From Ilumatobacter fluminis (GTDB taxonomy: Bacteria; Actinomycetota; Acidimicrobiia; Acidimicrobiales; Ilumatobacteraceae), in the NCBI RefSeq assembly GCF_004364865.1, contig NZ_SOAU01000001.1, forward strand, positions 3,070,001 through 3,134,000: 64,000 nt of DNA. Reading direction: 5' to 3'. The notes beneath the pieces are model-generated. The model did not search any database, was not told the DNA's origin, and saw only the letters and a list, made by a program, of their open reading frames with translations. The position numbers were made by a program, and so were the translations under genes. Each line of letters opens with the position of its first letter. The stretch's first letter is position 1. Of this stretch, positions 19,127-62,467 are shown piece after piece.

Positions 19127-19945
19127 ATGACGAGCGCCACCCCCGACGCGATCGATGCCTTCCGACACGACGGCGCTGCCGTGCTCCGCGAAGCGGTCGA
19201 CCCGGCCACGCTGGCTGGGTTGGCCGACGGCGTCGAGTACAACCGCACCCACCCGAGCCCGTGGTCGCACTGGTACACGAACCCGGACGAGTCGGTCGGA
19301 TTCTGGAGCGACTACGTGACCTGGCGCTCCGTGCCGCAGTACGAGGCAGCCGTCTTCGGCAGTGGTCTCGCCGAGGTCGCCGCAGCCCTGATGGGTTCGG
19401 ACACGGTCCGCTTCTTCCACGAGCACGTCCTGGTGAAGGAGCCGGGAGCCACCGAGCGCACGCCGTGGCACCACGACCAGCCGTACTACTCCGTCGACGG
19501 CGACCAGAACGTCTCGATGTGGATCGCACTCGACCCGGTGCCCGAGGGAGCGGGCGTGCGGTTCGTCGCCGGGTCGCATCGCTGGAACCGCTGGTTCATC
19601 CCGCGCAAGTTCGTCGATCACACGCCGTACGCCGCGGAGTCGGGGCGGTACGAGCTGCTGCCCGACATCGACGCCATGCTGGCCGACGATCCGACCCTGC
19701 GAACCGTGACCTTCGGTGTCGAACCGGGCGACGTCGTCGTGTTCCACTACCGGACCCTGCACGACGCGCCGGGCAACCCGTCGGCCGACCGGCGACGACG
19801 GGTCGTCAGCTTGCGCTGGGTCGGCGACGACGCCGTGTGGGCCGAACGCCCGTGGCAGGTCTCGCCCCCGTTCGAACCCGACGGCCTCCGCCCGGGCGAC
19901 CCCCTCGACGACGACCGCTTCCCCGTCGTCCCGACCGCCCCCTGA
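19127..19945 (+). CDS. Phytanoyl-CoA dioxygenase (PhyH) family Fe(II)/2-oxoglutarate oxygenase
   Basis: 272 residues. The iron-binding facial triad is present: His and Asp of HHDQPYY (around residue 122) and the distal His of LHDAPGN; the 2-oxoglutarate-anchoring Arg follows in RRRVVSLRW. The fold, length and spacing fit PhyH-family hydroxylases, which act on diverse small molecules. Substrate unknown. Downstream is a 440-base gene-free region filled with palindromic repeats. Confidence 0.85.
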   Translation: MTSATPDAIDAFRHDGAAVLREAVDPATLAGLADGVEYNRTHPSPWSHWYTNPDESVGFWSDYVTWRSVPQYEAAVFGSGLAEVAAALMGSDTVRFFHEHVLVKEPGATERTPWHHDQPYYSVDGDQNVSMWIALDPVPEGAGVRFVAGSHRWNRWFIPRKFVDHTPYAAESGRYELLPDIDAMLADDPTLRTVTFGVEPGDVVVFHYRTLHDAPGNPSADRRRRVVSLRWVGDDAVWAERPWQVSPPFEPDGLRPGDPLDDDRFPVVPTAP

Positions 19946-20387
19946 CCCCGCCGCCTCCAGGGCGCTCCCCACCGACCACCGCCGGACCCACAGGCGATTA
20001 AATCCACTTCAGGTCCACCGGTGGACGCACAGGCGATTTAATCCACCAGGAGTCCGGCACCGACCCGACCCCGACCAGCCCTCACCCGGACGCACAGGCG
20101 ATTAAATCCACCAGGCGTCCACCGGCGGACGCACAGGCGATTTAACCCACCAGGCGTCCGGCACCGACCCGACCCCGACCAACCCCTCACCCGGACGCAC
20201 AGTCGATTTAATCCACCTCGAGTCCACCGGTGGACGCACAGGCGATTTAATCCACCAGGCGTCCGGCACCGACCCGACCCCGACCACCCCCACCCCCGGA
20301 CGCACAGGCGATTCGACCCACCAGGAGTCCGGCGGCGGGCGGGTGCTGGTTCGCCGGGTGGTTGCACCACGGCGTAGCGTCGGCGGG
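19946..20387. other. Gene-free region with repeat array
   Basis: No believable gene. Bases 19984-20330 hold seven palindromic repeat units; the remainder is C-rich (ccgacccgaccccgacc). A minus-strand open frame across the array encodes a Gly-Leu-Asn-Arg-Leu-Cys repeat, but it is a by-product of the DNA repeat and has no start context. Confidence 0.7.
19984..20330. repeat. Seven 33-base palindromic units in a 105-base higher-order tandem array
   Basis: Units start at 19984, 20023, 20088, 20127, 20193, 20232 and 20298. Each runs from ggacgc through caggcgatttaatccacc to gcgtcc (or agtcc), an imperfect palindrome with an AT-rich centre in otherwise GC-rich DNA. Spacing alternates 39 and 65-66 bases: a 6-base linker (accggt/accggc) between paired units and a 32-33-base C-rich linker (ggcaccgacccgacc...) between pairs. 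The array is therefore about three and a half copies of a ~105-base compound repeat. Linkers are repeated rather than unique, so this is not CRISPR. Confidence 0.9.
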
Positions 20388-21821
20388 ATGGGGAAGCCGG
20401 TGTTGCCTGACGGGTTGGTGGTCGTGGTCAAGCGCGACTGCGAGACGTGCCGCACGGTGGTGCCGGTGCTGCAGCAACTGGCCGCCGGCCCCGGCATCAC
20501 GGTCTACACCCAGGACGACCCCGACTTCCCCGGCGACCCGGCCGCCGTCCACGACGCCGACCTCGGCGTCAGCTGGCACCACGAGATCGAGACCGTCCCC
20601 ACCCTCATCTCGGTCGAGAACGGCACCGAGGTCGACCGCACCGTCGGCTGGCTGCGTACCGCATGGGAAGCGCTGACCGGCATCGAGGGCCTCGGACCCG
20701 ACCTGCCGACGATGCGTCCGGGCTGCGGCAGCAAGAGCGTCGACCCCGACTTGATCGACGAGCTCCGTGTGCGCCACGGCGGCAGCATCCTCCAGGCACG
20801 GCGGATCGAGGTCGCCGACGCGGAGGACGACATCGAGATGATGTTCACACGGGGCTGGACCGACGGCCTCCCCGTCGTGCCGCCGACCGAGGCGCGCGTG
20901 ATGGCGATGCTCGACGGCACCACTCGCTCTCCCGACGAGATCGTCGCCACGGTGCCGCCCGACCTCGTCGATGTGACCGTCGAGAAGGTCGCCATCGCCG
21001 CCGTCATGGCCGGCTGCAAGCCGGAGTTCATGCCGTGGGTCCTCACCGCGGTCGAGGCGGTGTGCAACGACGAGTTCAACATGCACGGTCTCCTCGCGAC
21101 CACGATGCCGGTCAGCCCGGTGATCGTGTGCAGCGGCCCCGGCACCCGTCGGATCGGCATGAACTCGGGGATCAACGCGATGGGCCAGGGCAACCGTGCC
21201 AACTCGACGATCGGGCGGGCGCTCCAGCTCGTCGTCCGCAACGTCGGCGGTGGACGCCCCGGCGAGGTCGACCGGGCGACCCACGGAAACCCCGGCAAGG
21301 TGGGCTTCTGCTTCGCGGAGGACGACGTCACCTCGCCGTACGGCACGCTCGCCGGACAGTTCGGGATCGACGACGGTGTCGACGCCATCACCGTGTTCGC
21401 CGGCGAAGGACCGCACTGCATCGTCGATCAGCTGAGCCGAACGCCCGAATCGTTGGCCAACTCGCTCGCCCACCAGCTCCAGGCGATGCACCACCACAAG
21501 CTGGTCATCGCGTTCGACGCCATCCTCGTCATGGGCCCTGAGCACGCCCGGGTGTTCGCCGAGGCCGGTTGGGACCGCGACCGGATCCTGTTCGAGCTCC
21601 ACTCCCGACTCACGACACCGGCAGCCGAACTCGCTCGCGGCGCCGATGGCATCACCGAAGGTGTACCGGCCGGACTCGAAGGCGACCTGCCGAAGTTCAC
21701 GCCGACCGGCCTGATGCTGGCCTACGCCGGTGGCGGTGCCGGGCTGTTCTCGATGCTGATCGCCGGTTGGGCGAACGGCGCGAAGGGTTCGACACCGGTC
21801 ACCCGAGCGGTGCGATACTGA
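20388..21821 (+). CDS. Thioredoxin-like domain fused to a large conserved domain; partner of UGSC selenoprotein
   Basis: 477 residues from ATG 20388. The N-terminal ~95 residues have a thioredoxin-like CxxC (Cys18 and Cys21 in KRDCETCRTVV) and a cis-Pro-like turn in ETVPTLIS. The remaining ~340 residues begin with MMFTRGWTDGLPVVPPTEAR, contain VMAGCKPEFMPW and a Gly-rich MNSGINAMGQG segment, and end hydrophobic. I do not recognise an established enzyme family for this part. The UGSC selenoprotein starts 14 bases downstream with a strong Shine-Dalgarno, so the two are almost certainly one operon. A role in reducing the Sec/Cys centre of the partner is an inference. Confidence 0.7.
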   Translation: MGKPVLPDGLVVVVKRDCETCRTVVPVLQQLAAGPGITVYTQDDPDFPGDPAAVHDADLGVSWHHEIETVPTLISVENGTEVDRTVGWLRTAWEALTGIEGLGPDLPTMRPGCGSKSVDPDLIDELRVRHGGSILQARRIEVADAEDDIEMMFTRGWTDGLPVVPPTEARVMAMLDGTTRSPDEIVATVPPDLVDVTVEKVAIAAVMAGCKPEFMPWVLTAVEAVCNDEFNMHGLLATTMPVSPVIVCSGPGTRRIGMNSGINAMGQGNRANSTIGRALQLVVRNVGGGRPGEVDRATHGNPGKVGFCFAEDDVTSPYGTLAGQFGIDDGVDAITVFAGEGPHCIVDQLSRTPESLANSLAHQLQAMHHHKLVIAFDAILVMGPEHARVFAEAGWDRDRILFELHSRLTTPAAELARGADGITEGVPAGLEGDLPKFTPTGLMLAYAGGGAGLFSMLIAGWANGAKGSTPVTRAVRY

Positions 21822-21835
21822 ACGCAGGAGGGGCC

Positions 21836-22357
21836 ATGACGCGAACGATCCTCGATCCGACCGGAGAACGCACCGTCGCCGAACGGGCACGCCTGGCGCG
21901 CCCGGCATCGCTCGACGGGCTGACCGTCGGCTTGCTCGACATCTCCAAGCCGCGAGGCGACGTGTTCCTCGACCGGCTCGAGGAGCGACTCACCGGCGTC
22001 GGCGCGAACGTCAAGCGCTACATGAAGCCGACGTTCACCAAGCCCGCTCCGGTCGACCTGCGGCACGAGATCGCCACCGAGTGCCAGGTGGTGATCGAGG
22101 CGCTCGCCGATTGAGGCAGCTGCACGTCGTGCAGTGTGCACGACATCAGTGATCTCGAACTCCGTGGCATCCCCGGTGTCTTCGTCGCGTCGCAGGAGTT
22201 CGTGACGGCGGCCGAAGCCCAGTCGAAGTCGCTCGGCTACTCGGCGATGGCGCGGGTCTTCACCCCGCATCCCATCCAAGACCGCACCGACGACGAGATG
22301 CGGGCCTACGCCGACGCCGCCTTCGACGACATCGTCGCCCAAGTCACCGCCGGCTGA
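21836..22357 (+). CDS. UGSC-family selenoprotein with in-frame TGA (Sec93)
   Basis: 173 residues when the TGA at 22112-22114 is read as selenocysteine. The ATG at 21836 follows aggagggg. Before the TGA the protein reads LDGLTVGLLDISKPRGDVF...RYMKPTFTKPAP...VIEALAD; after it, in the same frame, GSCTSCSVHD and a well-formed remainder with GIPGVFVASQEF and HPIQDRTDDEM up to a stop at 22357. The resulting U-G-S-C-x-x-C motif is the name-giving motif of the UGSC (seleno)protein family, in which other members carry Cys. A conventional annotation would split or truncate it. Function is unknown, probably a redox enzyme. Operonic with the thioredoxin-fused gene upstream. Confidence 0.88.
22126..22144 (+). 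promoter_or_regulatory. Candidate bacterial SECIS hairpin of UGSC gene
   Basis: Within the coding sequence downstream of the TGA, gtcgtgc (22126-22132) pairs perfectly with gcacgac (22138-22144) around loop agtgt. The loop G-U lies about 20 bases after the TGA, inside the 16-37-base window described for bacterial SECIS elements. A competing stem (ctgcac/gtgcag, 22120-22134) with loop gtc lies closer. Which one SelB would bind cannot be decided by eye. Confidence 0.5.
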
Positions 22358-22383
22358 CCCACCCCAACCCACCCCGACCGCCG

Positions 22384-22430
22384 AAGGCGTGAACAAACTG
22401 CGGAACTATTCCGCAGTTTGTTCACGCCTT
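22384..22430. repeat. Perfect 22-base-arm palindrome, AAGGCGTGAACAAACTGC family copy 1
   Basis: Left arm 22384-22405 (aaggcgtgaacaaactgcgg, then aa) and right arm 22409-22430 are exact reverse complements around the loop cta. It lies between the convergent UGSC and collagen-like genes, so it can act as a bidirectional terminator hairpin, although there is no T-run. A second copy at 35991-36034 sits between divergent genes. Confidence 0.85.
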
Positions 22431-22457
22431 GCTCGTGATCGTCGAGGGGTGTCGGGG

Positions 22458-23849
22458 TCAGCTGCCGATCGACAGCGGGGCGGCGAGCGGGTAGCTCGGG
22501 AGCCCGACCGACGCCGGTGTCGCGGTCTGCAGGAGGTATCCGTGCGCGGTGCCCGACGACGCGTAGCAGTTCGGGTTGTCGATCGACGCCGAGGTGAGCG
22601 ACACGTTCGGCGACATGCCGTTCGCGTCCGCCGTGGCCTTGGTCATCAGCGAGTCGAACGCATTCGAGTACACGATCGTTCGGCTCCACGTCGCCGGCGA
22701 TCCGGCGCCGCCCGAGTTCAGGTAGGCCGTGCCGGTGCAGCCGGCGCCGGTGTAGTAGATCTGGCCCGGGTACATCGTGCCGTCCCATGCGAAGCCGGCG
22801 AGATGACCGGTCGAGGTGAGCACCTCGACGCCGTAGTCACCGATGCTGGTGACGGTGCCGATCGTGTTGTTCGATGCGTCCTTGAGCACCATGGCGCCCG
22901 ACGGACCGGCGGGACCCTGCGGACCGGCGGGACCCTGCGGGCCCGTGGCGCCGGTCGCGCCCGGGTTGCCCTGCGGGCCTGGTGCGCCGGGATCACCCTG
23001 GTCACCCTTCGGTCCCTGCACACCAGGATCGCCCTGGTCACCCTTCTCACCTTGCGGGCCCTGCACGCCGGGGTCGCCCTGATCGCCCTTCGGCCCCTGC
23101 ACACCAGGGTCGCCCTGTTCGCCTTGCGGGCCCTGCACACCGGGATCGCCTTGCGGACCGGGGACACCCTGCAGACCCGGGATCCCCATCAGGCCCTGGA
23201 TGCCCTGCGCGCCCTGGTCGCCCTGGTCGCCTTGCAGGCCCTGCGGACCCTGGTCGCCTTGCAGGCCCTGCGGACCCTGTTCGCCCTGTTCGCCCTGTTC
23301 GCCCTGTGGGCCTTGTTCGCCCTGCGGGCCCTGCGCGCCGCGAGCGCCCGTGTCACCCTTCGGGCCGGGAGCACCGGCACCGGGCGCATACCAACCGAGC
23401 ACGTCGATGATCACGTCGACCGAGCCGGCATGGTTGTAGACCGAGAACTTGCCGTTCCCGAGTCGGACGTCGGTCGTGTTCGCGACGACGCCGACCTGCG
23501 GCGTCGGGTTCAAGGTGGATGCGTCGGGTCGGGACGAGCCGTTCGGGAACAGCGTGATGTGGGTCGGCTTCGTCGGCAGGACGGCCGTGACGTTCACCGA
23601 CAGGGCGGTGGCGTCGGCGGGGATCGAGCACGTCCCGACGGCAGTGATCGACCGGGTCTTGCCGGCACCGAGCCAGCCGGAGCCGGTCCCGACATCTCGC
23701 GAGTCGATCAGTCGACAGGAGTCGGACGGGTAGAAGACCGACGGTCCGGCATGGGACGACGAACCGGCCGAAACGGCAAAGCCTGCCGTCGCGGTCAGTC
23801 CGACGATCGCGAGTCCGGTCAGGACGCGTCGGGTCGAGCGGGTTTTCAC
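22458..23849 (-). CDS. Secreted collagen-like protein with N-terminal beta domain
   Basis: 463 residues from GTG 23849, preceded by ggaggttccc. A signal peptide ([21 protein letters not shown]) leads to a ~110-residue domain ([12 protein letters not shown]...[19 protein letters not shown]...[13 protein letters not shown]). This is the RVLDTR/NVT-type beta domain that recurs in actinobacterial surface proteins. It is followed by about 53 uninterrupted Gly-X-Y triplets rich in Pro, Gln, Asp and Lys, then a ~150-residue C-terminal domain with two Cys. Probably a trimeric extracellular stalk or adhesin. No sortase motif or membrane anchor seen, so it may be released or anchored through the N-terminal domain. 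Confidence 0.85.
22905..23375. repeat. Collagen-type 9-base periodic repeat within gene
   Basis: The plus strand shows ggaccctgcgg and cgccctggtcgc-type units repeated every 9-18 bases, encoding Gly-X-Y triplets. Several 18-54-base blocks are nearly identical (for example the [12 protein letters not shown] block occurs three times), so the tract is prone to slippage and assembly error. Confidence 0.8.
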
Positions 23850-24045
23850 GGGAACCTCCGTAGCTGGTGCTTTCAGCACCGTTGACAACAACGCCGAGTC
23901 GGCCGCAGCCCGCCACGGCGCCGAAGCACCCGGACCGGTCGGAGATCTCGACGCACGGGTTCTGCATCGGGCCTGGTCAGGCGACCCTTGACCGGTTACC
24001 GGGTGCGCGACAGCCGTGCTGTTGTCGCCGTCGACCGCCCGACGC

Positions 24046-24894
24046 TCAACCGGGAAGCCGGACCGACATGTCGTCCAGTACACACAAGCCGTCGGCGATC
24101 AGCGACCGAAGCAACCGGTCGGTAGTGGCCTCGTCGCGCTGCATCACCGTGGCTACATCGATGACGGCGACCGGACCGTCGCCGAGGGCTTTCATCAAGC
24201 GACCGCGGGCCTGGCGGTCGCTGCCCTCGAACGGGGCCTGCTTGGTGCTGACCCCGCTCGACCCGACCGCCGGATCGGGCCGGTCGACGTCGCCGGCCCA
24301 TGAGCAACGGGCACGGATCGGGCAGGCGTCGCACGCCGGGTCCCGCGGGCGACACAGGACGGCGCCGAGGTCCATCAGGCACTGGTTCCAGACCCAGGCG
24401 TCACCGCTGGGGCAGTACTCGTCGGCGATCGCCTGCACCCGCTTCGGCGTCAACCGCTCCCCCGCCACTCGGGCATAGACACGTGCGATGTTGGTGTCGA
24501 CGACGGCCGCATCGAGCTCGAACGCGAACGCCATCACCGCTCGCGCCGTGTACTGGCCGATGCCGGGCAGCGCGAGCAGACCGGCCAGGTCTCGCGGAAA
24601 GCCACCGAGCTCCACCACCTGCTGTGCCGTGGCGTGCAGGTTGCGGGCGCGACGCGGGTAGCCGAGCCCTTGCCACTCGCGGAGCACGTCACCGAGCGGG
24701 GCGGCGGCACAGGCCTCGGGCGTCGGGAACCGTTCGAGAAACGCCTCCCAACGCGGGATCACCCGGCCGACCTGGGTCTGCTGCAGCATGACCTCGCTCA
24801 CGAGGACCGCCCACGGGTCGCGGGTGTGCCGCCACGGCAGGTCGCGCAGGCGCGGCACGCCCCAGGCGAGCACGTCGCCGGTCAGGCCACTCAC
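24046..24894 (-). CDS. mutY: A/G-specific adenine glycosylase MutY, without NUDIX domain
   Basis: 282 residues. Catalytic Glu34 in [10 protein letters not shown], helix-hairpin-helix LPGIGQYTA (109-117), catalytic Asp133 in VVDTNIARV, and a [4Fe-4S] cluster set Cys181, Cys188, Cys191 and Cys197 (C-x6-C-x2-C-x5-C). It excises adenine opposite 8-oxoguanine in DNA repair. The C-terminal 8-oxoG-recognising NUDIX-like domain of longer MutY proteins is missing, as in many short actinobacterial versions; the last ~70 residues differ. The start overlaps the stop of the upstream YbhN-like gene by 4 bases. Confidence 0.93.
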
Positions 24895-61619: not shown

Positions 61620-61747
61620 GCGCTCGGAGGCTAACGGCGGCACGGACCGACGGTCGATCACGACGGATGAGAACGACCTGTGAACAACTACGAAACGACG
61701 GCCCGGTCGCGCCCATCCGCTCGCACCGGACCGCTACTCTGACGCCC

Positions 61748-62467
61748 GTGATCGCACGTCGCCTCACCGCTTTCACCGCCGCCGGCACCATCGTGCTCGC
61801 GGCGTGCGCCGGTGGCGGTGACTCCGACGCACAGGTCGAGACGGAGACCCCGGTCGAAGAGCCCGCTCCGCAACCGGCCGACGAGCCCGCCGACGAACCG
61901 GCCGGCGAGCCTGCTGACGAACCGGCTGACGAGCCCGCTGACGAGCCCGCGACCGAACCGGCTGGCGAGCCTGCTGACGAACCGGCGGCCGAGCCTGTCG
62001 AGGAGCCTGCGGGTGAACCGGCTACCGAGCCGACGCCGTCGCCGACCGAGGCCCCCGTGGCCGTGCCCGAGATCCTCGACGTGTCGGCCACCACGATCGA
62101 CGGCAACGAGATCGAACTCGGCGCATTCGCCGGCCGACCCGTGCTGTTGTGGTTCTGGGCTCCCTGGTGAAGCACCTGCAATCGTGAAGCCCCCTCGGTC
62201 GAGGAGGCCAAGCAACGTTGGGGAGACGAAGTCGCCTTCGTCGGAGTGGCGTGGTCCGGTGACACCGGCCAGTACGTCGACTTCGCCGACCGGTACGACC
62301 TGAGCTTCCCGCAGATCGACGACACGAACGCCGATGTGTTCACCCGTTTCGGCGTGGCGTATCAGCCGGCGATCGCCATCGTCCTCCCGAACGGCGATGT
62401 CCAGACCATCGCCGGGGCCGTCGACGCCGAGACGCTCGACGGCATCCTGAGCCAGGCGACCGCCTGA
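61748..62467 (+). CDS. Thioredoxin-fold (TlpA-like) lipoprotein selenoprotein, in-frame TGA (Sec141)
   Basis: 239 residues with TGA 62168-62170 read as selenocysteine, start GTG 61748. Signal plus lipobox (TIVLAAC), then a repetitive EPADEPAGE-type acidic/Pro linker. A thioredoxin domain follows: LGAFAGRPVLLWFWAPW, then Sec-Ser-Thr-Cys (141-144) where homologues have Cys-x-x-Cys, then NREAPSVEEAKQRW, VAWSGDT and the cis-Pro AYQPAIAIV, ending at 62467. Both halves are in one frame and the junction falls exactly at the redox site. Would be an extracytoplasmic disulfide reductase. Pseudogenisation is the rival explanation but far less likely. Confidence 0.87.
61864..62040. repeat. In-gene Glu-Pro-Ala-Asp repeat
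   Basis: Units of 12 bases (gacgaaccggct, gacgagcccgct) repeat about ten times with synonymous variation and encode the EPADEPAG-type linker of the Trx-like lipoprotein, between the lipobox and the thioredoxin domain. Confidence 0.8.
62189..62208 (+). promoter_or_regulatory. Candidate bacterial SECIS hairpin of Trx-like gene
   Basis: Inside the coding sequence, gccccctc (62189-62196) pairs with gaggaggc (62201-62208) with one C-A mismatch around the four-base loop ggtc. GGUC is the apical loop sequence of the E. coli fdhF SECIS. Its first G is 27 bases after the TGA, within the bacterial window of 16-37. Confidence 0.7.

Follow-up and report, generated by a model that had tools for sequence, protein, structure and literature searches.

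A UGSC-family selenoprotein gene of Ilumatobacter fluminis, its thioredoxin-bearing partner, and a possible reductase role akin to that of GrdB and PrdB

The 64,000-nucleotide stretch of Ilumatobacter fluminis DNA analysed here (contig NZ_SOAU01000001.1; hereafter the window) carries, at 21836–22357 on the plus strand, a gene of the UGSC family that is divided by an in-frame TGA. Is this codon read as selenocysteine (Sec), and what would the resulting protein do? The accessible part of PMC13188914 lists the UGSC family without a function. We found that the gene very probably encodes a Sec-containing UGSC-family protein, that it stands directly behind a thioredoxin-bearing partner gene, and that in profile comparisons its product looks like a compact homologue of the C-terminal domain that bears Sec in GrdB (with GrdF and GrdH) and PrdB, the selenoproteins of the glycine, sarcosine, betaine and D-proline reductases (PF07355, TIGR01918, TIGR04483). 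By analogy with these enzymes we propose, at a probability of roughly 55%, that UGSC and its partner would work as a thioredoxin-powered reductase acting like GrdB/PrdB, with Sec attacking a C–X bond of the substrate.

The reading frame runs from the ATG at 21836–21838 through the TGA at 22112–22114 (codon 93) to a terminating TGA at 22355–22357. Its read-through product has 173 residues, of which residues 93–99 are U-G-S-C-T-S-C. The original prediction, made from the letters alone, had given the same open frame and the U-G-S-C-x-x-C motif, and its family assignment is borne out by two curated models: NF041046 UGSC_fam (NCBIfam) covers residues 27–170 at 166.4 bits (cut-off 125), and PF24696 UGSC (Pfam) covers residues 4–171 at 156.7 bits (cut-off 25), with U93 followed by G-S-C. 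Because both matches span the two sides of the TGA, the read-through is not due to chance. The GC content of third codon positions is high on either side of the codon (0.93 and 0.85), and sequence inspection places a ribosome-binding-site-like AGGAGGGG at 21826–21833 (plus strand), 2 nt 5' of the ATG. This is the single UGSC gene of the host genome, which is one 4.78-Mb contig.

The genes selA, selB, selC and selD, on which the original prediction had let the Sec assignment depend, are all present in that genome. The selA and selB genes are adjacent (405.7 bits, cut-off 267.9, and 285.3 bits, cut-off 242.25), selD scores 324.5 bits (cut-off 125), and tRNA-Sec scores 66.6 (cut-off 47), with anticodon TCA according to ARAGORN; the host thus has SelA, SelB, SelD and tRNA-Sec, the set by which a bacterial selenoprotein gene is recognised. 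Across the class, 89 of 247 genomes contain a UGSC match. A tRNA-Sec above the cut-off occurs in 65 of the 72 genomes with a listed TGA-containing UGSC gene vs 3 of the 14 with stop-free (Cys-only) matches (Fisher p 3.6e-7; three genomes without a listed UGSC row are left out of this table, and the weakest UGSC matches are unlisted).

The homologues are in agreement at the recoded column, which holds TGA (59) or Cys (12) in 71 of 71 motif-bearing UGSC matches. This sample comprises 72 matches in loci L022–L089 plus the window, some of these loci overlapping, with one 60-residue fragment left out. Among 80 loci found through the partner gene, Candidatus Blastococcus massiliensis and Geodermatophilus obscurus have TAG at the Sec column, and the tRNA-Sec matches of both genomes (65.1 and 64.2 bits) carry the anticodon CTA; ARAGORN labels the CTA-anticodon tRNA-Sec of these two Geodermatophilaceae (L170, L171) as tRNA-Pyl. 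TAG-coded Sec in Geodermatophilaceae, UGSC proteins included, has been reported before, according to the account in the accessible part of PMC5330540. The column therefore holds Sec, Cys or, in two genomes, TAG, with conservation on both sides, which is the outcome that the original prediction had named as decisive. Its warning that annotation may truncate such genes is also justified: the UGSC gene of an Acidovorax sp. T1 plasmid (L225:8640–9170), with its in-frame TGA, is recorded as a 96-residue hypothetical protein. Together these data make it likely that the window gene is a functional selenoprotein gene, its machinery recognised by homology and its UGA presumably translated. The UGSC family, its Sec and even its TAG coding are already known, and the gene call itself is ordinary.

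A candidate bacterial Sec insertion sequence (SECIS) lies at 22112–22157 on the plus strand, proposed from folding, alignment and codon bias, with an apical hairpin at 22127–22143, the loop GUG, and AGT as the codon at 22133–22135. The 52 nt at 22109–22160 fold with a minimum free energy of −22.3 (z −2.6). Against letter-shuffled controls the mean fold z is −1.8 in 108 TGA genes vs −0.6 in 8 Cys genes; some TGA genes fold weakly at this position. In 75 aligned TGA genes (70 distinct), 84.1% of cells are paired in the hairpin vs 30–44% with slid partners, and shuffling the letters of the 3' columns gives 82.8%, with 0 of 500 shuffles reaching 84.1. At 0.156 the covariation score is higher than in any of the 500 shuffles (mean 0.140), and three pairs are changed on both sides, which equals the shuffle mean, so compensatory changes are weak evidence by themselves. 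The GU of the apical loop comes from the codon at U+7, and among 121 distinct TGA genes this codon is xGT in 117 (102 AGT, 14 TGT, 1 GGT), counts that come from related genes and are not independent events. Both TAG genes have AGT there and none of the 10 Cys genes has xGT, whereas AGT makes up 6.1% of the 2624 Ser codons counted in the partner genes. Fold z, pairing and the constraint on the loop GT all point to a SECIS hairpin directly after the UGA. The U+7 constraint is a sharper sign of it than covariation and, together with the TAG codon, provides independent support for Sec at this site, as judged from the sequences.

The partner gene occupies 20388–21821 on the plus strand and ends 14 nt 5' of the UGSC start. 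From its open reading frame (ORF), a 64-member alignment and an AlphaFold2 model (predicted local distance difference test, pLDDT, 93), it encodes a thioredoxin domain, a linker with an invariant Cys113, and an unnamed domain of about 347 residues. The start at ATG 20388 is our choice; the longest ORF begins at GTG 20343. The thioredoxin domain (residues about 1–100) has K-R-D-C-E-T-C with Cys18 and Cys21, and Pro71; the three residues are invariant in 64 of 64 rows, which were selected for having K-x-C-x-x-C. A CxxC and a proline at the cis-Pro position are what a thioredoxin fold would have, and in comparison with thioredoxin structures the best Z is 9.4, the top rows having a root-mean-square deviation (rmsd) of 2.0–2.5 over 79–85 aligned residues. 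A viral structure library added mainly thioredoxins and glutaredoxins. The domain scores below the NCBIfam thioredoxin equivalog cut-off (20 vs 96.8 bits).

The unnamed domain (20772–21812, plus strand), delimited by sequence searches and linkage, contains the motifs W-T-D-G-L-P-V-V-P-P-T and M-A-G-C. It gave no credible Pfam or NCBIfam family in scans of the window protein and three divergent members, no credible Pfam family for the Arthrobacter and Variovorax SRS16 partner domains, and nothing credible among solved structures by sequence profile. Class I fumarase was considered as a relative and set aside, as its probability of 0.4–0.7 is too weak to use; only the thioredoxin part matched structures. 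The closest named relative of the partner, among the best 80 of at least 546 stretches encoding relatives, is in an Ilumatobacter metagenome-assembled genome (79% identity).

UGSC genes and partner genes are found together from whichever side the search begins. In 39 class neighbourhoods, picked from the listed UGSC matches and mainly on long contigs, 41 of 41 UGSC genes have a same-strand partner domain at most 400 nt away, with the partner first in 31 and UGSC first in 10. The shorter loci L022–L050 (n = 29), many of them the same genes as in the 39 neighbourhoods, show the partner in 28. From the partner side, the best 80 relatives were kept, so this set tests the near clade; UGSC lies on the same strand within 400 nt in 73 of the 80 loci, a few UGSC genes being cut by a contig end. 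The numbers of UGSC and partner genes are equal in all 15 genomes searched for both (0 to 3 each). A partner match is beside or fused to UGSC in 11 of 11 plasmid loci, the sample being 11 of 15 UGSC-bearing plasmid records, and in a Variovorax boronicumulans plasmid the two form one 545-residue ORF. The conserved linkage and this one fusion suggest that UGSC and its partner act as a two-subunit enzyme, presumably as a physical complex.

The haloarchaeal plasmids L228 and L229 have a partner domain on each side of UGSC, an order that suggests two partner subunits. In Neorhizobium galegae (L235:8565–9609) two frames share the partner domain between them, and the TrxB-like stretch that follows is fragmented, which may mean that this copy is in decay.

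Thioredoxin is coupled to this pair in more than one way. In the near clade it is usually fused, and 76 of the 80 loci have a recognisable CxxC ahead of the partner domain; the four exceptions are one at a contig edge (L093), two whose frames stop 15 codons upstream (L137, L150) and one without the motif (L125). In the distant modules, tblastn gave no match to the thioredoxin part of the partner. Some of these modules have separate thioredoxin-system genes instead. Arthrobacter sp. ERGS1:01, whose UGSC is of the Cys type, has trxB-trxA-partner-UGSC, and its trxA-partner-UGSC order is the order of the fused gene in the window. Roseovarius has partner-UGSC-trxB, Variovorax SRS16 has trxB within the UGSC-partner cluster, and TrxB-like stretches also occur in L065, in V. 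boronicumulans, where the identity is 28%, and, in broken form, in Neorhizobium. In glycine reductase operons, trxB and trxA are likewise paired with grd genes (PMC10536192, accessible part), and TrxA/TrxB are given as the electron donors of betaine reductase (PMC8547467, accessible part).

The relation to GrdB and PrdB emerged from profile comparison. The reference set comprised 15 GrdB-type and 24 PrdB-type sequences from class and phylum genomes, read through their TGA (L184, L218 and L222 were dropped as partial or faulty extractions, and L213–L215, which match the N-terminal half of the model only, were not taken in). With hhalign, 96 UGSC rows match the 39 pooled sequences at 94.4–95.9% over 85–86 columns in two broader UGSC alignments, and the near-clade alignment A4 does so at 89.8–94.2% over 73 columns. 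U93 aligns on the Sec of GrdB/PrdB, and beyond it the two share the conserved E..G[IL]P strand and then a PHP-like stretch. Masking UGSC columns 93–99 leaves 82% against the pooled set and 54% against GrdB alone; masking the motif on both profiles (smaller set) leaves 63–82%. Reversed controls give 0.2–2.1%, and the thioredoxin domain of the partner, a control for the CxxC, gives 0.3% against UGSC. GrdB/PrdB sequences that end at Sec, without the C-terminal part, give 0.2–4%, because the Pfam GRDB model stops at Sec; the match appeared after read-through of the TGA.

This resemblance does not extend to family membership or to the partner. A hmmscan of the UGSC protein found no GRDB-type family at E 0.001 (NCBIfam) or E 1 (Pfam), and the GrdE/PrdA pyruvoyl subunit (PF09338) has no match in the host genome that could pair with it. 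With no GRDB-type model match and no GrdE, we file the protein as UGSC and not as a GrdB member; the homologous Sec-bearing C-terminal domain is seen at profile level only. The partner domain vs GrdB/PrdB gives 0.6% and no alignment. The host genome also holds a PrdB-like selenoprotein gene (L188; C1:4175809–4176240, plus strand) that continues past an in-frame TGA with TPVUPLC and scores 115.7 bits with TIGR04483, below its cut-off of 300.

The AlphaFold2 model of UGSC (pLDDT 93) has a Rossmann/flavodoxin-like sheet in which U93 opens a helix that follows a strand. In the accessible part of PMC2398784 (2008) a thioredoxin-like fold was proposed for UGSC, which the predicted Rossmann-type model does not resemble. 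Searches for solved UGSC relatives by sequence profile gave nothing credible, and Foldseek gave generic, low-TM matches only. The best VIA-align row is chain H of 8s7v, the activation complex of methyl-coenzyme M reductase, with 129 residues aligned at Z 12.4 and rmsd 2.7; various Rossmann-type folds come next, at Z 11.0 and lower. We read the 8s7v match as one of shared fold only.

In the catalytic cycle that we propose, the unnamed domain of the partner would bind and position a small organic substrate, and the U93 selenolate would attack the substrate carbon, cleaving its C–X bond. Cys96, with Cys99 in the clade of the window, would then resolve the Se–C adduct as a selenenylsulfide and release the reduced product. 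The CxxC of the thioredoxin of the partner would reduce the selenenylsulfide for the next turn, drawing on NADPH via TrxB. This thioredoxin is fused in the gene of the window; elsewhere a separate TrxA fed by TrxB would presumably take its place.

As to the substrate, several annotated relatives stand among TTT, TRAP or TAXI transporter parts, coenzyme A (CoA)-transferases, isocitrate lyase/phosphoenolpyruvate mutase proteins and LysR regulators. The TTT/TRAP transporter parts and CoA-transferases near some relatives suggest small carboxylate-type substrates, or small-acid catabolism, at those loci; the neighbourhood in the window gives no catabolic hint. Halorientalis, Natrinema and Variovorax are among the hosts in which the pair belongs to a catabolic-looking cluster. 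ORF clusters in the 80 partner loci include acyl-CoA-dehydrogenase-like (14), MutY-like (13), SelB (11) and SelA (10) proteins, identities that were assigned by eye only and on which no conclusion rests. When 20 neighbours chosen from the surroundings of distant paralogues were scanned with Pfam, no shared pathway emerged; L061 and L085 contain AMP-binding (acyl-CoA ligase type) enzymes, and single loci contain an amidase or an amidohydrolase.

The same parts could be assembled differently. UGSC might be a general thiol or selenol redox protein (of peroxidase, disulfide or methionine sulfoxide type) with the partner as its electron donor or target and no C–X cleavage, as its UxxC motif and thioredoxin linkage would allow. 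We judge this unlikely: the predicted fold, with U93 between strand and helix, and the 0.3% profile result against the thioredoxin of the partner speak against it, and the nearly constant partner domain of about 347 residues, along with the catabolic neighbourhoods of some relatives, better suits a substrate-specific enzyme. Distinctly less probable still is that Sec binds or removes a metal or organometal, as in other selenoproteins lately linked to metal handling. According to the accessible part of PMC13188914, binding of atoms or moieties, in most cases metals, is predicted for about 20% of the selenoprotein families known; in ten annotated plasmid loci, though, we found only a zinc ABC substrate-binding protein and an MBL-fold metallo-hydrolase, both in Acidovorax, and the profile relatives of UGSC are C–N reductases. 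That the gene is degraded, with translation ending at TGA 22112 and the downstream half not made, would follow from reading TGA as a stop under table 11. It is very hard to reconcile with the conservation on both sides of the TGA, the Sec machinery in the genome, the fact that this codon is TGA, TAG or Cys in homologues from different phyla, and the SECIS-type codon constraint, and we give it almost no weight.

The proposed reductase must itself be set against several results that weigh on the other side. The GrdB/PrdB match is a profile-level one, its E-values refer to single comparisons, and a single subfamily (GrdB or PrdB) gives 50–88% with the broader alignments and 14–57% with A4. The thioredoxin domain reaches 24% (smaller set) or 6% (larger set) against GrdB/PrdB, and a GrdB structure for a fold check was looked for by sequence and none was found. 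The partner gives 0.1% against two GrdE sequences, so that nothing here shows a pyruvoyl half such as the glycine reductase mechanism has. Cys99 is Cys in 70 of 70 near-clade rows and in only 9 of the 26 rows of the broader alignment, which makes Cys96 the better candidate for the resolving residue. Separate trx genes border a minority of the loci: TrxB-like stretches occur in 5 of 11 plasmid loci (one weak, one broken), and of the 39 class neighbourhoods one has such a stretch immediately downstream. The linkage has its exceptions: the L026 partner is on the same strand as UGSC but 3.7 kb upstream of it, and 7 of the 80 partner loci are without an adjacent same-strand UGSC (three have it in divergent orientation some 0.5 kb away, one has it at 3.9 kb, and three have none, one of these at a contig end). 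Lastly, 7 genomes with a TGA-containing UGSC gene are without a tRNA-Sec above the cut-off; their assemblies have about 70–940 contigs, although the completeness listed for two of them is 97% and 100%, and a laxer search brought one of the seven just over the cut-off.

If the reductase reading holds, an orphan family becomes a testable enzyme of two proteins, thioredoxin and NADPH, related to known chemistry, and a partner family is defined that the Pfam and NCBIfam scans missed. A wider reading, which we hold tentatively and put somewhat short of even odds, is that these modules would be a widespread and hitherto unassigned class of thioredoxin-coupled, Sec- or Cys-dependent C–X-cleaving reductases, a counterpart of glycine and proline reductase outside strict anaerobes and including haloarchaea, in which the unnamed subunit would replace the pyruvoyl protein in activating the substrate and paralogues, which amount to as many as 8 UGSC matches in one genome, would be tuned to different substrates. 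In the parts of the UGSC literature consulted we found neither a GrdB/PrdB link nor a thioredoxin-bearing partner; as far as those parts go, the present analysis is new in its statistics on linkage, in the coupling to thioredoxin and in the relationship to GrdB/PrdB.

Other features of the window stand apart from this argument. A scan of 19900–22600 found no sigma-70 promoter and no T-tailed terminator. Just 3' of the UGSC gene, a long perfect palindrome at 22384–22430 has 22-nt arms and the loop CTA, without a T tail, and is a possible terminator or attenuator. Beside the module, 22458–24083 (minus strand) encodes a predicted protein with a long collagen-like G-P-Q repeat. The second TGA-containing gene that the original prediction had mentioned is indeed there, at 61667–62467 (plus strand): it encodes a TlpA/ResA-like thioredoxin-type protein with WAPWUSTC, matched across its TGA by the AhpC-TSA, Redoxin and Thioredoxin models.

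Taken by itself, the UGSC gene of the window differs in nothing from the family described by NF041046 and PF24696. The partner may have been met before: a domain called Unknown_1, fused to UGSC in GOS metagenome reads, was noted in 2008 (PMC2398784) and may be the same domain. In its accessible part that work gives this fusion without linkage statistics, function or GrdB link, unlike the present analysis. With GrdB, the UGSC protein of the window shares the UxxCxxC motif, as given for GrdB in the accessible part of PMC13188914, and UGSC modules share with grd operons their thioredoxin-linked gene clusters (PMC10536192, accessible part). The two systems differ in size, with 92 residues before Sec in UGSC vs about 340–350 in GrdB-type sequences, and in company, UGSC being paired with the unnamed domain and GrdB with GrdE. 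Unlike GrdB/PrdB systems, UGSC is found in haloarchaeal plasmids, and some of the genera that bear it are usually grown in air.
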